From: Deltaproteobacteria bacterium | Lineage (GTDB): Bacteria; UBA10199; JACPAL01; JACOUP01 | Length of the DNA: 64,000 bases | NCBI GenBank assembly: GCA_016177765.1 | Contig: JACOUP010000008.1 | Coordinates: 191,021 to 255,020, forward strand | Direction: 5' to 3' | Shown: positions 5,368 to 50,164 of the stretch, one piece after another | Layout: each line of letters begins with the position of its first letter | How positions within the stretch are numbered: the stretch's first letter is position 1 | Translations under genes and position numbers: made by a program | Notes under the pieces: model-generated | What the model was told of the DNA's origin: nothing | The model's database searches: none | Seen by the model: the letters and a program-made list of their open reading frames with translations, nothing else

Positions 5368-8148
5368 ATGGCTGGCTCTGATTCCATTGATAGAACCTCC
5401 CCGGCGCCGGCCTATGGCGCGACCTTGGCCACCGGGGAGACGGTTGTTTTTGATCAGACCGGTCCCGCAGGAGCTGCCGAGACGGCAACTCCTCCTGATC
5501 GTACAGCAACGATCCTCAAATTTCGGGCCCTTGAACGAGGGGGCAACTCCAATAAGGCCAAACGATCCGTTGACGTCGAAAAAGACGAGATGGGGGTCAA
5601 ATTCTTCCATGTCGTCGGGATTGATTCGGAAGAGCCCAATGATCCAGTCTCTGTCCAACAGGCCGGGGATTTTGAACGAAAAGACCTCTCCTTTCTTGAA
5701 AACGGCCACGGTTTCACCGTAACCGGGCTCGATTCGGTTCAGAGACAGGGCTGGGTCATGACGCAATCTCGGAAAACCTCTCACCGCAACTCCTTTCGAG
5801 CGGAACTGCTGATCAAAATCTACCGTGTCAGGGTTGCCGGCTTCCCTTCCGGGGGACAGGTCGCGATGGTCAGTCTCCTGAACCCGGGGCTCGTCCCTCT
5901 GGATGAAGAGGGGGCCCCCGTTTTTCAACAGGGGGGGCTGGCGCAGGTCATACGAACTCGCCTGAATGCAGGGCTGGGGATGGGAACCACCAACAGCGTT
6001 GTTATCACCATCGGCAACCGGGCTTATGCGGGTGACCCGATCCGTCCCTCCGTTGCCTTCCGGATGAGGGAGACTGAAATCCCTTCTATCGGCGAGATCC
6101 ACCGGGACAGGTTCCACACCACCAGTGACCCCAGATACAAGGCGGTTGCCGCCACATTTTATGAAAAACTCCTTTTGGAATACCGACGCCGTCAGGCACT
6201 AGACGAGGTTGTCGAAGGCGTGCCTGTGGCGATTAAATATTACACCAGTACCGGGGAAGGGACGCGCCTGATGACCTTCATCCCCGGCACCCTCCCCGGT
6301 ATGAGGAGTCTGGTCATTCTTGATGAAAGAGACACGGGAAGGCAGACAACACTTGAAACTCCCATTTTCAGCGAACGTGTCGTCGAAATCCTCCCCTCGG
6401 GAATCATGATCGTCAGCCACAATGATGTGGATCTCCACCGGTCTGACTTTATCGAAAGACTCCTTAGAGATACCGAAGTGAGATTCCGTCAAACAACGAA
6501 CCGGAGACTGGCTGAACAGGAAGAGGCGCTACAACCCACTCAGGATCGTGCCACCCTGCTGGGTCTGAACGACACTGAAAAAAGGGCATTGGCCGGTGCC
6601 TTCAAGGCCGCTCAAGAAACCGAACAACCGAAAGGAACCTACAAAATCTATGAAATCGATCGAAGACGGCTTTCACCTGAGATCCTCCCGAGGGAAGTCA
6701 GGGGTCGTCTGGTTCTCGGCGCCTTGACACACAGTTTTGATCCGCTCACACCAAAAGAGTTGAAAAGTTTAACCGAGAATGAACGGACTATTGTTAACCT
6801 CCTCCTCGCAGGCCACACCTTTGAAGAGGTCCGTCGTCTGAGAAACACCACGGATCACAATCTCCGATACTGGTTCGACAGCGCGCAACGCAAACTGGTT
6901 TCACTGAGAGGAAATGGTGATGAAGACAATTGGACTAACTTTTACAGGGACTTTGTCCGGTTGGAACACACAGGCATCCCCGATATGGATGAGAGTCGAT
7001 TTGCCACCGTTTTGCAAAGAATGGAGGGACGAAGCAATCCCTACCTAAGGCGAATTGTTGAGGCTCAGCAAGAAGGGGCCCAACCGGTCGACGTCCCCAA
7101 CTCCTTCGAAGAGCCGGCACGGGCAACGGTTAAAAACTCAATCACCAATGCACGGATTGTCGCCAGAGAAGAGGCGGTCAGGGTGGTGCTTCCCATTGCG
7201 GAGGTAGAACAGGCATTGGTCCGGGCCGAAATTTTGGGAACCCTTCAAAGAGCCGATGCCCTTGATTTTCTGACACCGGCGGAACAGCGAGTCGTAGAAG
7301 CGATTGAAAACGGGGCGACCAACCAGCCGGAGATCGGCGAGGTCTTGGGCATTTCAAGACTCACAGCGAAGGCTCACATCGACAGCATCCGCCGCAAACA
7401 GGCCGGGAGAAAAGGGGAAGATACGCGAGAAGAAGTCATTCGGAAGGCACGGCGCTGGTGGCTCACCGGTTCCTTTCTTGTTAACGATGATAAAACTCTG
7501 GAACGCCAGATTGCCCTTCTTCCTCCTCAGTGGCAGGCGGCGATCCGCGCCTTCTTGACCACTGACAATCTCTCCGAGGCGACACGCAAACTTCGAAAAG
7601 AAGGAGACACCTCCGTCCAGATGACCGGTTACCAAACCCGTCTGAATCAAGCGGTCACCGCACTGCGTTTACAGACCGCCAACTCTGTCCCTCGGGCAAG
7701 GAGTTATATTCCTGAAGCCTTTAGGATTTCAAACAGCTCCGTCGGCCCTGAGGAACTCGACCTCCCCTACCCTCCGGAGGTCTGGCCCCTTTTTGTCGGT
7801 CAACTCCCCCCGGAAACAGGGGCTGGCCTCATTGCCACCTTTGGCGAAACGGGACCGACTTCACGAGCCGATGTTCTGAGACTTCTCCCAACAACCGATC
7901 AACCCTTCCCTGATTTTGGCCTGAACGGCACCCCCCTCGACAGGCTGGCCCGCGATGTCGGGGCATTGCTGGTCAGCCGGGGGATGGAAATGACTCTCGT
8001 CACCGCAGAGGTTACACAGGCCGCCGCCCTTCTCACCACTAACAACGGAACAACAGCCAGGCCACTCGATGTTGAATCGGGAAAAAGAACCTTGGAAACC
8101 GGAAGACGAGACCTTGCGAGGGACGCTCGCATCATCCCGATCCGATGA
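5368..8148 (+). CDS. 926-aa protein with three helix-turn-helix-like segments
   Basis: I do not recognise this protein as a whole. There is no signal peptide or membrane segment. Three C-terminal segments look like LuxR/sigma-region-4 helix-turn-helix units: about 468-513 (LTENERTIVNLLLAGHTFEE, ending FDSAQRKL), 635-680 (LTPAEQRVVEAIENGATNQ then LGISRLTAKAHIDSIRRK, the best match to a LuxR HTH) and 718-768 (LPPQWQAAIRAFLTTDNLSE, weaker). The N-terminal 400 residues are mixed alpha/beta with no motif I know. LuxR-type HTHs normally occur singly at the C-terminus of ~220-aa regulators. The leader MAGSDS recalls the MAGPGEVR start of the next two genes. There is no clear ribosome-binding site, and the CAAC-N16-CGAT element sits just upstream. 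A DNA-binding role is inferred. Confidence 0.8.
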   Translation: MAGSDSIDRTSPAPAYGATLATGETVVFDQTGPAGAAETATPPDRTATILKFRALERGGNSNKAKRSVDVEKDEMGVKFFHVVGIDSEEPNDPVSVQQAGDFERKDLSFLENGHGFTVTGLDSVQRQGWVMTQSRKTSHRNSFRAELLIKIYRVRVAGFPSGGQVAMVSLLNPGLVPLDEEGAPVFQQGGLAQVIRTRLNAGLGMGTTNSVVITIGNRAYAGDPIRPSVAFRMRETEIPSIGEIHRDRFHTTSDPRYKAVAATFYEKLLLEYRRRQALDEVVEGVPVAIKYYTSTGEGTRLMTFIPGTLPGMRSLVILDERDTGRQTTLETPIFSERVVEILPSGIMIVSHNDVDLHRSDFIERLLRDTEVRFRQTTNRRLAEQEEALQPTQDRATLLGLNDTEKRALAGAFKAAQETEQPKGTYKIYEIDRRRLSPEILPREVRGRLVLGALTHSFDPLTPKELKSLTENERTIVNLLLAGHTFEEVRRLRNTTDHNLRYWFDSAQRKLVSLRGNGDEDNWTNFYRDFVRLEHTGIPDMDESRFATVLQRMEGRSNPYLRRIVEAQQEGAQPVDVPNSFEEPARATVKNSITNARIVAREEAVRVVLPIAEVEQALVRAEILGTLQRADALDFLTPAEQRVVEAIENGATNQPEIGEVLGISRLTAKAHIDSIRRKQAGRKGEDTREEVIRKARRWWLTGSFLVNDDKTLERQIALLPPQWQAAIRAFLTTDNLSEATRKLRKEGDTSVQMTGYQTRLNQAVTALRLQTANSVPRARSYIPEAFRISNSSVGPEELDLPYPPEVWPLFVGQLPPETGAGLIATFGETGPTSRADVLRLLPTTDQPFPDFGLNGTPLDRLARDVGALLVSRGMEMTLVTAEVTQAAALLTTNNGTTARPLDVESGKRTLETGRRDLARDARIIPIR

Positions 8149-25815: not shown

Positions 25816-28503
25816 TTATTTGCGCGAGATGCCGACCCGGGAGGGGTGGGACCGTTCCAGCGTCTTCCCAGAGGAGACGGCCTGGAAAAAAGCGGCCCAG
25901 ACCCGCCTTTGGAAGGCCAGTCCCTCCGGATCGACCACAAGATCGGGGTTCCCATCGGCACCCACAACCAGTTTCTCCGGCGTATCCCGTGTCCGGAATT
26001 CGACCGTTGGGGGAGGATTACTGCGGGAAACCAGTTTCAGCTGAGGGTTCGGATCACCCGCCACTCGGGCACGGGCGGTTACAATGTTGTCGAGATTAAT
26101 CTCCCCCGTATGACGGTCCCAAAGGACGGCGATCCGCTCCCCGATCCGGACAAAATAATCGTCATCCCCCTCGTTGGGGTAGCGGCTCCAAAAGGGTCCT
26201 TCCACCTCGGCCCAGGCCTCCGCTACTTGCGTCTTGGGGAGGGCCGAAGCCTCCCTCTTGCGGGGGGGTGAGATATACATCGATCTCTGGGGGGCCGGCG
26301 GAAAGGCCTCCACTAAATCGGCCCGATACCGTGAATAGGCCCGTGCGACACGAACCACCGGTTCAAAAGGTTTTGACGGATCGGCCGGATCGATAGACGG
26401 AGGAAAGGAAAGATGATTCTGATGAGCCATGCAATCCCCTCTGTGACACCCGTACGCCCCGGTCTCTTCAAGAACACGATAGGTTGTTGTCATCAGCTCA
26501 TCATACAAACCGCCCGCCCGCATCCCGTGATAGAGCAACTCGATTCCGCCGATCCAATCACGGCCGAATTCAAGTTCCACGGGGGGATTCGGACTAAAAC
26601 CGTCCCGTGCCAAGGCAAGACGGGTGTGCGAGGCGTTGTTCACAAAAGGACGAGGATCCACCAGTCTTTCAAGCCCGGCACGGAGTTGCACATAGGCCTG
26701 CTCAATATCAGCAAAAGAACCGTCACCCGGTTCCTCTCCGGCCTCCTTCCTGACAACCCCCAGGAAATATTCGGGATCCTCCCCTTCCGCATACCGGAGA
26801 CTGTCCCAGTGAACACGTCCCGCCGCTCCTTCAGTCGGCCGAAAACTCCAATTGTGCAGATTCCCGGAGAGATCCTTTAAGAAACCATTGTAGTCGGTGG
26901 TACCCTCCTTGATGGCCTTCTTCACCTCTTCCGAAGAAACTCCCAGGCGTCTGGCCAAAACCGCCCGCGCCTGTTTCAGGTTCACCTTGAACCGTTTAAA
27001 AACCGTAATCGGGGCGTCATCGACAGGCCCCAGTTCTCTGGGGGTGATTTTGATAAAACCGTTATCCACAAAGGCATAGAGGATCGGGTTTCCCGAGGCC
27101 TGGGAATAAATAATGCGACATTGGTGTCCGCCGACACGGAAACTCACAATGGCATTGAGATAAACCTTGGACCCCTTCCCCATCCGGATTGGGTTGGCCG
27201 GCAACCGGGTTGCCACCCACCCCTGGCCTTGCAGTGCCGACATCAATTCCGTCATGATCTCGTCGATCTCCATCGGATGTCCGGGGTTCGAACGGCTCGG
27301 GCCCGGCATGAACTCCACCTCCTCCCCTACCCTCAGGCCGGCAAGAACCGCCTGGTCATAATATTCATCAATCAACCATCGCAACCACCGCCCCGACTCT
27401 CCCCGCTGAACCGCCTTCTCCAGGTCTTTTTGCCGGACCTCCCGCCCCATATGCCTCAAGACGGCTGGCATCATATCGGCATAAGGGAAACTCCGCGGGT
27501 CCTGCACAACCCCCAGGAGCGGACGACCGTCCGGACCGGTTTTCTCAATAATCTGGCGGGCCACCTGCATCCGGCTCAAATCCCCTCCGATCACCTGCCC
27601 ATGGCTCCTCTCCGCCGCACCGTAAGTCAGGTGTTCCGGCAGTCCTTCCAGGTCCAAAAACAACGCCACCAGATAATAGGGGTCACTGGCGACATCCTGC
27701 GCGGTTACCCCATTGACCCGGATGCCGCTCGCCAGAATCCTTCGGGCCACCGTCTCCCCGACCGCCTCGACATCCCAAGACTGCCGCCGCTTGAACCAAA
27801 CCTTGGCCCGTTCCAGATCGTGACGGCCGACACCAAACAAGACAACAGAGCCTGCCTGGATACCGAGGGCGATCCCGTTCTGCCAGTCCGGTTCCTCACG
27901 CCACCGCTCCCTCAAGTGGGTAGCGGTCAGGGCGTCAAATCCCAGATTGACAGCCCCAAGACCGATCTGGGTGCCGGTCAGGTAGCGGAGCTGTGCCACC
28001 GTTGCCGCATCCGGAAAGGCCAACCCTCCCTGGAGAACACGGTGGACTATCCGTTCCCGTGCCATACCGACGCTGACGTTCATAACCGCAAGCCCCATCC
28101 CCCCAACCAACAGGTAGTTGAAAACAGGATCTTCCCCCCCCTCTTCAAAAAAGAGTTCGTATCCGGCATGCCCCGCCTGCCAGCCGAAACTCCCGAGTCC
28201 GATGAAACCGGCGTTACGGAAACGGGCATAATTGCCAAAATACCCGTTCGGTTGGAATCGGCGTGAAGCGGCCGCCACAAGGGCATAACCCCCCCCCACC
28301 TGGGAGAGCCAGTCGGCGGTCTCTCTCCAGACAGGAGGAGGTACGGCGGGAGGAGGGGGGAGGGGAATCGGCTTCGGCGGCGCCCCCTCAAATTCCCGAT
28401 AAGGGGCCACCTCTTCCGGTTCAGGAAGCTCACCGGCGGGAGGAGGGGGGAGCTGGGCCAGAAACCAGCGTCCAACGTTATCAGCAGGGGTCGGTGGGGC
28501 CAT
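25816..28503 (-). CDS. Large accessory protein, RGDC-motif family, paralogue C (895 aa)
   Basis: Full-length paralogue of A and B. The start I use, MAPPTPADNVGRWFLAQL (ATG 28501..28503), aligns with the starts of A and B; an in-frame ATG 13 codons upstream would precede the predicted transcription start. A long Pro-rich leader (PEPEEVAPYREFEG, then a PPPP run) is followed by hydrophobic helices, FPDAATVAQLR, GAYGCHRGDCMAHQNH, EAFPPAPQRSMYISPP, RHTGEINLDNIVTARA and DPEGLAFQRRVW. No signal peptide or ribosome-binding site. It has its own promoter element and is divergent from the CPG2-like M20 peptidase, which has one too. The function is not known. Confidence 0.8.
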   Translation of the reverse strand: MAPPTPADNVGRWFLAQLPPPPAGELPEPEEVAPYREFEGAPPKPIPLPPPPAVPPPVWRETADWLSQVGGGYALVAAASRRFQPNGYFGNYARFRNAGFIGLGSFGWQAGHAGYELFFEEGGEDPVFNYLLVGGMGLAVMNVSVGMARERIVHRVLQGGLAFPDAATVAQLRYLTGTQIGLGAVNLGFDALTATHLRERWREEPDWQNGIALGIQAGSVVLFGVGRHDLERAKVWFKRRQSWDVEAVGETVARRILASGIRVNGVTAQDVASDPYYLVALFLDLEGLPEHLTYGAAERSHGQVIGGDLSRMQVARQIIEKTGPDGRPLLGVVQDPRSFPYADMMPAVLRHMGREVRQKDLEKAVQRGESGRWLRWLIDEYYDQAVLAGLRVGEEVEFMPGPSRSNPGHPMEIDEIMTELMSALQGQGWVATRLPANPIRMGKGSKVYLNAIVSFRVGGHQCRIIYSQASGNPILYAFVDNGFIKITPRELGPVDDAPITVFKRFKVNLKQARAVLARRLGVSSEEVKKAIKEGTTDYNGFLKDLSGNLHNWSFRPTEGAAGRVHWDSLRYAEGEDPEYFLGVVRKEAGEEPGDGSFADIEQAYVQLRAGLERLVDPRPFVNNASHTRLALARDGFSPNPPVELEFGRDWIGGIELLYHGMRAGGLYDELMTTTYRVLEETGAYGCHRGDCMAHQNHLSFPPSIDPADPSKPFEPVVRVARAYSRYRADLVEAFPPAPQRSMYISPPRKREASALPKTQVAEAWAEVEGPFWSRYPNEGDDDYFVRIGERIAVLWDRHTGEINLDNIVTARARVAGDPNPQLKLVSRSNPPPTVEFRTRDTPEKLVVGADGNPDLVVDPEGLAFQRRVWAAFFQAVSSGKTLERSHPSRVGISRK

Positions 28504-49334: not shown

Positions 49335-49349
49335 ACGCCCCCTTCCCCC

Positions 49350-49387
49350 CAAAAAAAATCCCCCTCTCCTTTTAGGGAGAGGGGGAT
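49350..49387 (-). terminator. Strong intrinsic terminator for the minus-strand RNA
   Basis: A 12-bp perfect stem (49358..49369 with 49376..49387), a 6-nt loop, then a run of eight T on the minus strand. It abuts the inverted-repeat arm of the candidate RNA. Confidence 0.85.
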
Positions 49388-49403
49388 AAAATTATCGTTT
49401 AGG
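49388..49403. repeat. Right arm (transcript 3' side) of the 16-bp inverted repeat
   Basis: AAAATTATCGTTTAGG; its exact reverse complement lies at 49955..49970. Confidence 0.9.
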
Positions 49404-49954
49404 ATGGAAAGTTTGGTTCCTCTAGAGTTTTGAAGCCCGACCGGTAGGCCGTATGCCTTTCGGCACCGCATTCCCTCTTGTTGTTGGCTTCCTTTCAGCT
49501 AGCCAGCCGTAGACTGGTTAACCGAAAGTACCTCAGCTTCAGGGATTTTTGCCACCCAGTCGTCGCCGGTAACTTTTGGCCGGTAGGATTACCGCGGCCT
49601 TTGGTTACCTGTCCTCCCCTGGAATTTCCTTGGCCCATAAGGGCTTCGGTCCCACCCCTGAGATCCTGCTTCCAAGATCTTCCTCTTTTCTCCTTTGTTC
49701 CCCAGACCACAAGGGCCTGAAGATTCAGGGAGTTTAGAGTTTCCCTCGGGGCGTTCCCTATTTCCTCCATTTGCACGGAGGAAACTCCTTTCTGACCTTA
49801 TTGTCGCTTTCAACTCCCCCTTTCAGATGCCCCGCCCCCCCTGGCTCCGGATTCCCCTGCCTGCGGGTGACCTCACGGTCCCCTGGCCTCGGCAGGTTCA
49901 AGAGACTCGAGACACCTTCCTGACGGAGGAAGAGTTACAGTTCGACGACCTTCC

Positions 49955-49970
49955 CCTAAACGATAATTTT
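49955..49970. repeat. Left arm (transcript 5' side) of the 16-bp inverted repeat
   Basis: CCTAAACGATAATTTT, the exact reverse complement of 49388..49403. Confidence 0.9.
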
Positions 49971-49980
49971 TCAAAGAGCA
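49968..49980 (-). promoter_or_regulatory. boxA-like antitermination sequence
   Basis: TGCTCTTTGAAAA on the minus strand, like the boxA of rRNA leaders (TGCTCTTTAA). It is placed directly before the inverted-repeat arm. Confidence 0.5.
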
Positions 49981-50037
49981 AACTTGATGGTTCGCTTTGA
50001 CCACACCCCGTTCGGACAAACAACCGATTTTTTTGCC

Positions 50038-50117
50038 TGTGGATGGAGAACAATTCAACACCCTGAAACTACTATAAAAAACATTCAAAAAAATGTTATC
50101 CACAGCTCTGTGAACAA
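50038..50117. other. Cluster of DnaA-box-like 9-mers in an AT-rich gap
   Basis: A perfect TTATCCACA at 50096..50104, TGTGAACAA at 50109..50117 (one mismatch, opposite strand) and TGTGGATGG at 50038..50046 (two mismatches), with an AT-rich stretch and an AACATT/AATGTT hairpin between. Confidence 0.35.
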
Positions 50118-50164
50118 TGCTGAGACGTTCGATAAGGCAGTATTACTCATTATAAAACAGCGCG

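Follow-up and report, generated by a model that had tools for sequence, protein, structure and literature searches.

The 64,000-nt stretch of DNA analysed here (the window) carries on its minus strand a segment between inverted repeats, which the initial annotation had read as an undescribed processed RNA with rRNA-like ends. The question raised by this locus is whether the segment is indeed a gene for a structured RNA and, if so, how that RNA would be made and to what known system it is related.

Anatomy of the locus and its relation to known RNAs

The elements first noticed by eye were all found again (Table 1). The arms form a perfect 16-bp inverted repeat with 551 nt inside and 583 nt from arm to arm; the boxA-like sequence, GCTCTTTGAAAA, described as standing just before the first arm, overlaps the start of that arm; the terminator placed after the second arm consists of a 12-bp hairpin (49387-49358) and a T run; and the internal hairpin with the GAAA tetraloop reads CCGAAAGG. 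A terminator hairpin also lies 3' of the RNA in those homologues that were read by eye. For the promoter, a consensus scan picked 50099-50071 instead of the region given in the table, and the hexamers could not be fixed.

Table 1. Features of the RNA locus, in window positions
Feature	Position	Strand	Basis or remark
Exact DnaA box, reading TGTGGATAA on the RNA strand	50096..50104	-	127 nt upstream of boxA
Degenerate second DnaA-like box, CCATCCACA	50038..50046	-	Direct reading; 2 mismatches (1 in sister genome G001)
Candidate promoter region, between DnaA box and boxA	49995..50023	-	Suggested by upstream comparison
rRNA-type boxA	49968..49979	-	Sequence, other loci, rRNA leaders
Terminal stem, 5' arm (leader strand)	49955..49970	-	Inverted repeat; covariation (helix 1)
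Structured RNA, 583 nt with both arms	49388..49970	-	Inverted repeat, folding, covariation
5' domain (A), helices 2-10	49804..49945	-	Covariation alignment
Middle domain (B), helices 11-14	49632..49797	-	Covariation alignment
3' domain (C), most conserved, helices 15-25; core of models R1-R3	49417..49624	-	Covariation
GAAA-tetraloop hairpin; GACAA-type loop in some homologues	49455..49464	-	Sequence and alignment
Terminal stem, 3' arm (trailer strand)	49388..49403	-	Inverted repeat
Intrinsic terminator, 12-bp hairpin and T run	49350..49387	-	Inverted repeat and terminator scan

The 583-nt strand folded with an energy z-score of -6.5, and none of 100 shuffled sequences was equally stable. It is to be noted that the folding of one genome's sequence alone is weak evidence, and that the size and stalk of the RNA recall known RNAs, so that an ordinary explanation had to be weighed, i.e., a known RNA (a divergent RNase P, tmRNA, SRP or 6S RNA, an rRNA fragment or an intron), a coding gene, or a chance repeat. 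A search with Infernal found no Rfam family at gathering score in the window locus, where relaxed E-values brought up only terminator-driven chance matches. Similarly, cmscan at relaxed E-values detected no Rfam family in the window locus or six homologous loci, including OLE, ROOL, GOLLD, HEARO and raiA. The SSU, LSU and 5S rRNA models had no match in the locus or its homologues, the group I and group II intron models had none at the locus, which instead has its own upstream region and terminator, and no tRNA or tmRNA was found there. The cores of RNase P RNA and tmRNA had been judged missing by eye, and no model matched them at the locus; the genuine copies sit elsewhere in the genome (C8:937384-937721 and C8:900529-900871, respectively). 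Reading frames were not conserved, and stop-free frames were generally no longer than in shuffled sequence, the longest ones falling at differing places and mostly inside the shuffled range. The genuine copies elsewhere, the absent frame and the massive covariation described below together refute RNase P RNA, tmRNA, a coding gene and chance; moreover, a chance arrangement is ruled out by the recurrence of the whole arrangement in other genomes of the phylum. The probability left to the ordinary explanation is thus negligible. No description of the RNA was found in the open-access literature.

Covariation and distribution of the RNA

Two alignments were examined, both of which are biased towards structure, the core alignment having been fitted to its own model and the full-length structure derived from its own alignment; the truncated copy of genome G042 was excluded. 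The full-length alignment of 27 copies (47% mean identity) supports a structure of 128 pairs with 89.0% of cells paired, changes on both sides in 115 pairs, and 720 compensatory cells against 241±15 in shuffles. As a control, sliding the partners by one column cut the pairing from 89% to 48%. In the 3' core (28 sequences, 38 pairs), 93.5% of the cells are paired, 35 of the pairs have two-sided changes, and there are 253 compensatory cells against 65.6±7.7 in shuffles, while the terminal stem has double changes in 15 of its 16 pairs. The margin of covariation far exceeds the bias of the alignments towards structure. Covariation among homologues, which had been set as a test of the RNA, is therefore very strong, and we regard a real, conserved RNA gene as practically certain. 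None of the three outcomes named at the outset as fatal to an undescribed RNA (a strong Rfam hit, a lack of covariation, a conserved protein frame) was found; the RNA is conserved, non-coding, structured and without an Rfam match. Three domains (A, B and C) hang off the terminal stem; an extra helix in domain B is visible but misregistered (CUCU with AGAG, and elsewhere CCCC/GGGG or CGCG/CGCG), and the consensus leaves conserved loops and junction strands unpaired.

Covariance models covering only the 3' core, namely R1 and the refined R2, agreed in detecting the RNA in 24 of the 46 genomes of the phylum, spread over 12 families and usually as a single copy; by DNA search of 60 genomes, the relatives were at most 82% identical. 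The remaining 22 genomes of the phylum gave chance matches only, even under permissive filters, none of which combines an exact DnaA box, boxA and stem arms. Since no copy is detectable in these 22 genomes, the RNA is no universal requirement. Weak model matches in G048 and G385, both within coding DNA, and a match from the DNA search in G006 were likewise dismissed as chance. The truncated copy, at locus L051 of G042 (1501-1626), has an incomplete 3' core and, in what was seen of it, neither the 5' part nor boxA; it may be a pseudogene or the result of an assembly break. Diverged tandem copies occur in two genomes, four in G041 (L013) and two in G044 (L014). Every copy has a boxA and a terminal stem of its own, and a single terminator follows the last one, an organization that may be likened to an rRNA-style polycistronic precursor. 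The identity among tandem copies is only 67-81%, which indicates that they are old.

Among 339 genomes of other phyla, the core model had one convincing match, in G223 (32.2 bits, E 3e-6 per genome). This locus (L123, minus strand, ~1.05 kb around 1962-2311) is intergenic and has no Rfam match; an 18-bp terminal stem (GAGCGAGGTGATCGCTCA / TGAGCGATCACTTCGCTC) encloses the ~1.05 kb including the 3' core, a DnaA box lies ~107 nt ahead of the stem, and boxA is not evident there. It is a probable distant, larger relative in another phylum. A second weak model match was seen just upstream of the core in the same RNA, both here (2149-2311) and in G018 (L119, 1501-1660), a hint that an ancient internal duplication may have given rise to domains B and C.

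RNA ends, gene neighbours and DnaA boxes

The ends of the RNA were then compared with those of rRNA precursors. The motif TCTTT[GAT]A[ACG]AA stands directly before the leader arm in 22 of the 27 copies and has one or two deviations in the other five (G022, G033, G028, G010, G032), and the inner stem AUCGUUUAGG/CCUAAACGAU is conserved and covarying. The 16S leaders of the same genomes bear TCTTTGAAAACTAAATAG, the same boxA as in the RNA copies; as 16S is absent from the window genome's own assembly, the leaders for this comparison were taken from relatives. The RNA therefore has the rRNA feature of a boxA followed by a long leader-trailer helix, and the covariation together with the shared boxA backs an rRNA-like birth pathway. 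In E. coli, the antitermination complex is nucleated at boxA, and 30S subunits require the leader-trailer helix in order to form (PMC10250234). The parallel with rRNA is one of architecture, from which transcription and processing of the RNA, including cleavage, are predicted. The leader-trailer stalk itself is hardly in doubt, and antitermination driven by boxA is very likely.

The neighbours of the RNA in the window are a gene of the Ham1 family (RdgB-like) and dnaB. In other families, judged from the flanking translations as read without profiles, they are HisG, TsaE and UbiD, a thioesterase, a GST-like protein or UbiA. None is conserved from family to family, and a cis-regulatory leader was rejected in view of these varying neighbours and of the terminator directly after the RNA. 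Because the neighbouring genes differ between families, action in trans is argued, and a trans-acting machine is rather probable. A separate observation was made in locus L015 of G032, where a long inverted repeat of the AGAGAGAGTCC... type (~170-310 and 775-925) flanks a tsaE-like gene near the RNA; this is perhaps a small mobile element.

The upstream regions hold a feature that the initial annotation had overlooked, namely DnaA boxes at set distances from the RNA. In upstream regions aligned on boxA, one locus per genome (n=23), the exact box TTATCCACA occurs in 17 and a box with at most one mismatch in 20; six loci are without an exact box, three of them without a box even at one mismatch. 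There are 26 exact boxes in 7,275 nt of upstream sequence versus 1 in 48,043 nt of flanks, and the number expected upstream is 0.05, from the genome rate and likewise from shuffled upstream sequence. Relative to boxA, the boxes cluster tightly at -116 to -149, -220 to -238 and -273 to -289, the three clusters being centred near −133, −229 and −283. Exact boxes are scarce in the window genome, which has 13 in 1.92 Mb; one of these lies immediately upstream of dnaA. Within the window, the sole other exact box is at 27062-27070. DnaA is an established transcription factor (PMC8203912), and it is reported to prefer closely spaced pairs of sites (PMC11317965); such pairs are present at several of the loci. 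Control of the RNA by DnaA appears highly probable. Two further occurrences are recorded. An inverted exact pair, TTATCCACA AC TGTGGATAA, lies between genes, upstream of a thiolase-like gene, in locus L088 (G000, C3, ~8066-8085), possibly as another DnaA-controlled site, and an exact box is found upstream of the rRNA operon (16S) in locus L097 of G022, the other complete 16S leaders read having none.

The boxes allow two other interpretations of the locus. It could mainly be a DNA element that titrates or reactivates DnaA, comparable to datA or DARS of E. coli, with the transcript serving the site. Exact boxes at conserved positions and a location away from oriC agree with this, but the full 583 nt show clear selection for RNA pairing, which a DNA titration site would not need, and boxA and the terminator would be left unexplained, which makes this interpretation very improbable. 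The locus was also rejected as oriC itself: GC skew over 19 sampled stretches (one masked) and the window changes sign near dnaA (C8:745 kb), with the RNA at C8:240 kb, i.e., ~505 kb from dnaA/oriC. One to three DnaA boxes and T tracts lie upstream of the RNA, and this number of boxes is small for an origin. The RNA is transcribed with the replication fork in the window genome. Alternatively, the RNA could regulate DnaA or the initiation of replication, for instance in a feedback through binding of DnaA or of the dnaA mRNA, as the boxes upstream of the RNA and the one upstream of dnaA in the window genome might suggest. An interaction between the RNA and DnaA is nonetheless without support, half of the phylum manages without the RNA, and DnaA controls unrelated genes too (PMC8203912); such regulation is quite improbable, if less so than titration.

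Proposed pathway and comparison with known systems

By comparison across the genomes, the locus is an RNA gene with a conserved structure, a terminal stem, a boxA and positioned DnaA boxes, and without conserved neighbours. From this architecture we infer binding of DnaA and Nus factors, processing, stability and a machine-like function. The RNA gene would be its own transcription unit, with one to three DnaA boxes upstream of the point where RNA polymerase initiates. Once transcribed, the rRNA-type boxA would recruit the Nus antitermination complex to the nascent RNA and so let the polymerase reach the end of this long untranslated transcript. Its leader and trailer strands would pair into a long stalk to be cut by RNase III, and the intrinsic terminator would close the unit. 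This would yield a stable three-domain RNA of ~550-580 nt that most likely serves as a ribozyme or as the core of a ribonucleoprotein, and DnaA would couple its supply to growth or replication. We favour, with somewhat better than even confidence, the view that this is a new class of large, structured, trans-acting non-coding RNA made by rRNA-type antitermination and processing, with its synthesis tied to DnaA. The broader proposal is of a further major stable RNA machine, made with boxA and stalk under direct DnaA control, that is present in roughly half of one phylum and, enlarged, in a second; it is put forward tentatively, at slightly less than an even chance.

To our knowledge, very few bacterial RNAs are both large and strongly conserved, and the known ones are ribonucleoprotein complexes, ribozymes or RNA cages. 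The present RNA is probably an unknown cellular RNA machine. Its rRNA-like birth pathway and fixed-position DnaA boxes, together with the lack of any known relative, form a combination without a match among the RNA classes found described. The link that it suggests between an RNA machine and the control of replication can be tested directly and, if true, would imply an unknown RNA-based activity tied to the replication cycle.

Among the known systems, OLE RNA (RF01071) is likewise ~600 nt long, ornate, multi-domain, chromosomal and trans-acting, with highly conserved islands; it differs in lineage, occurring in Bacillota, and the present RNA has no Rfam match to it. We know of no boxA stalk or DnaA boxes for OLE. 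ROOL and GOLLD are also ornate RNAs without a known role, the sizes in question ranging from ~580 to over 800 nt, and, as in GOLLD, the possible distant relative in G223 keeps the 3' region and alters the 5' region and the size. ROOL, GOLLD and OLE form RNA-only oligomers (PMC12286853). The similar size and multi-domain fold, and the conserved strands left unpaired in the consensus, would therefore also suit an RNA-only cage or oligomer, or a ribozyme, in place of a ribonucleoprotein core, with the same biogenesis. However, GOLLD and ROOL are typically phage-borne and near tRNA islands, whereas the present RNA is chromosomal, with housekeeping genes as neighbours and neither phage context nor a nearby tRNA island in the contigs read, and two pattern scans for viral copies led to three contigs, none of which matched the model. 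It also differs from both in its rRNA-like ends and missing Rfam match. That the RNA works alone in this way is unlikely, though the strongest of the alternatives.

Regarding its biogenesis, CRISPR arrays are known as boxA-led transcripts other than rRNA. Targets of the Nus complex outside rRNA exist in E. coli as well (PMC5725501). These share with the present RNA a boxA outside rRNA operons, but, as mRNA leaders or crRNA precursors, they have neither a terminal stem nor a single compact structured product. Compared with bacterial pre-rRNA, the RNA matches SSU, LSU or 5S neither in sequence nor by profile, is a single short unit with its own terminator, and has upstream DnaA boxes, a feature shared by just one of the rRNA leaders examined. 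Nevertheless, it is likewise a large untranslated RNA, co-directional with replication in the window genome, and the boxA sequence of the phylum's rRNA leaders stands just before the leader strand of its long terminal helix, as in pre-rRNA (PMC10250234).
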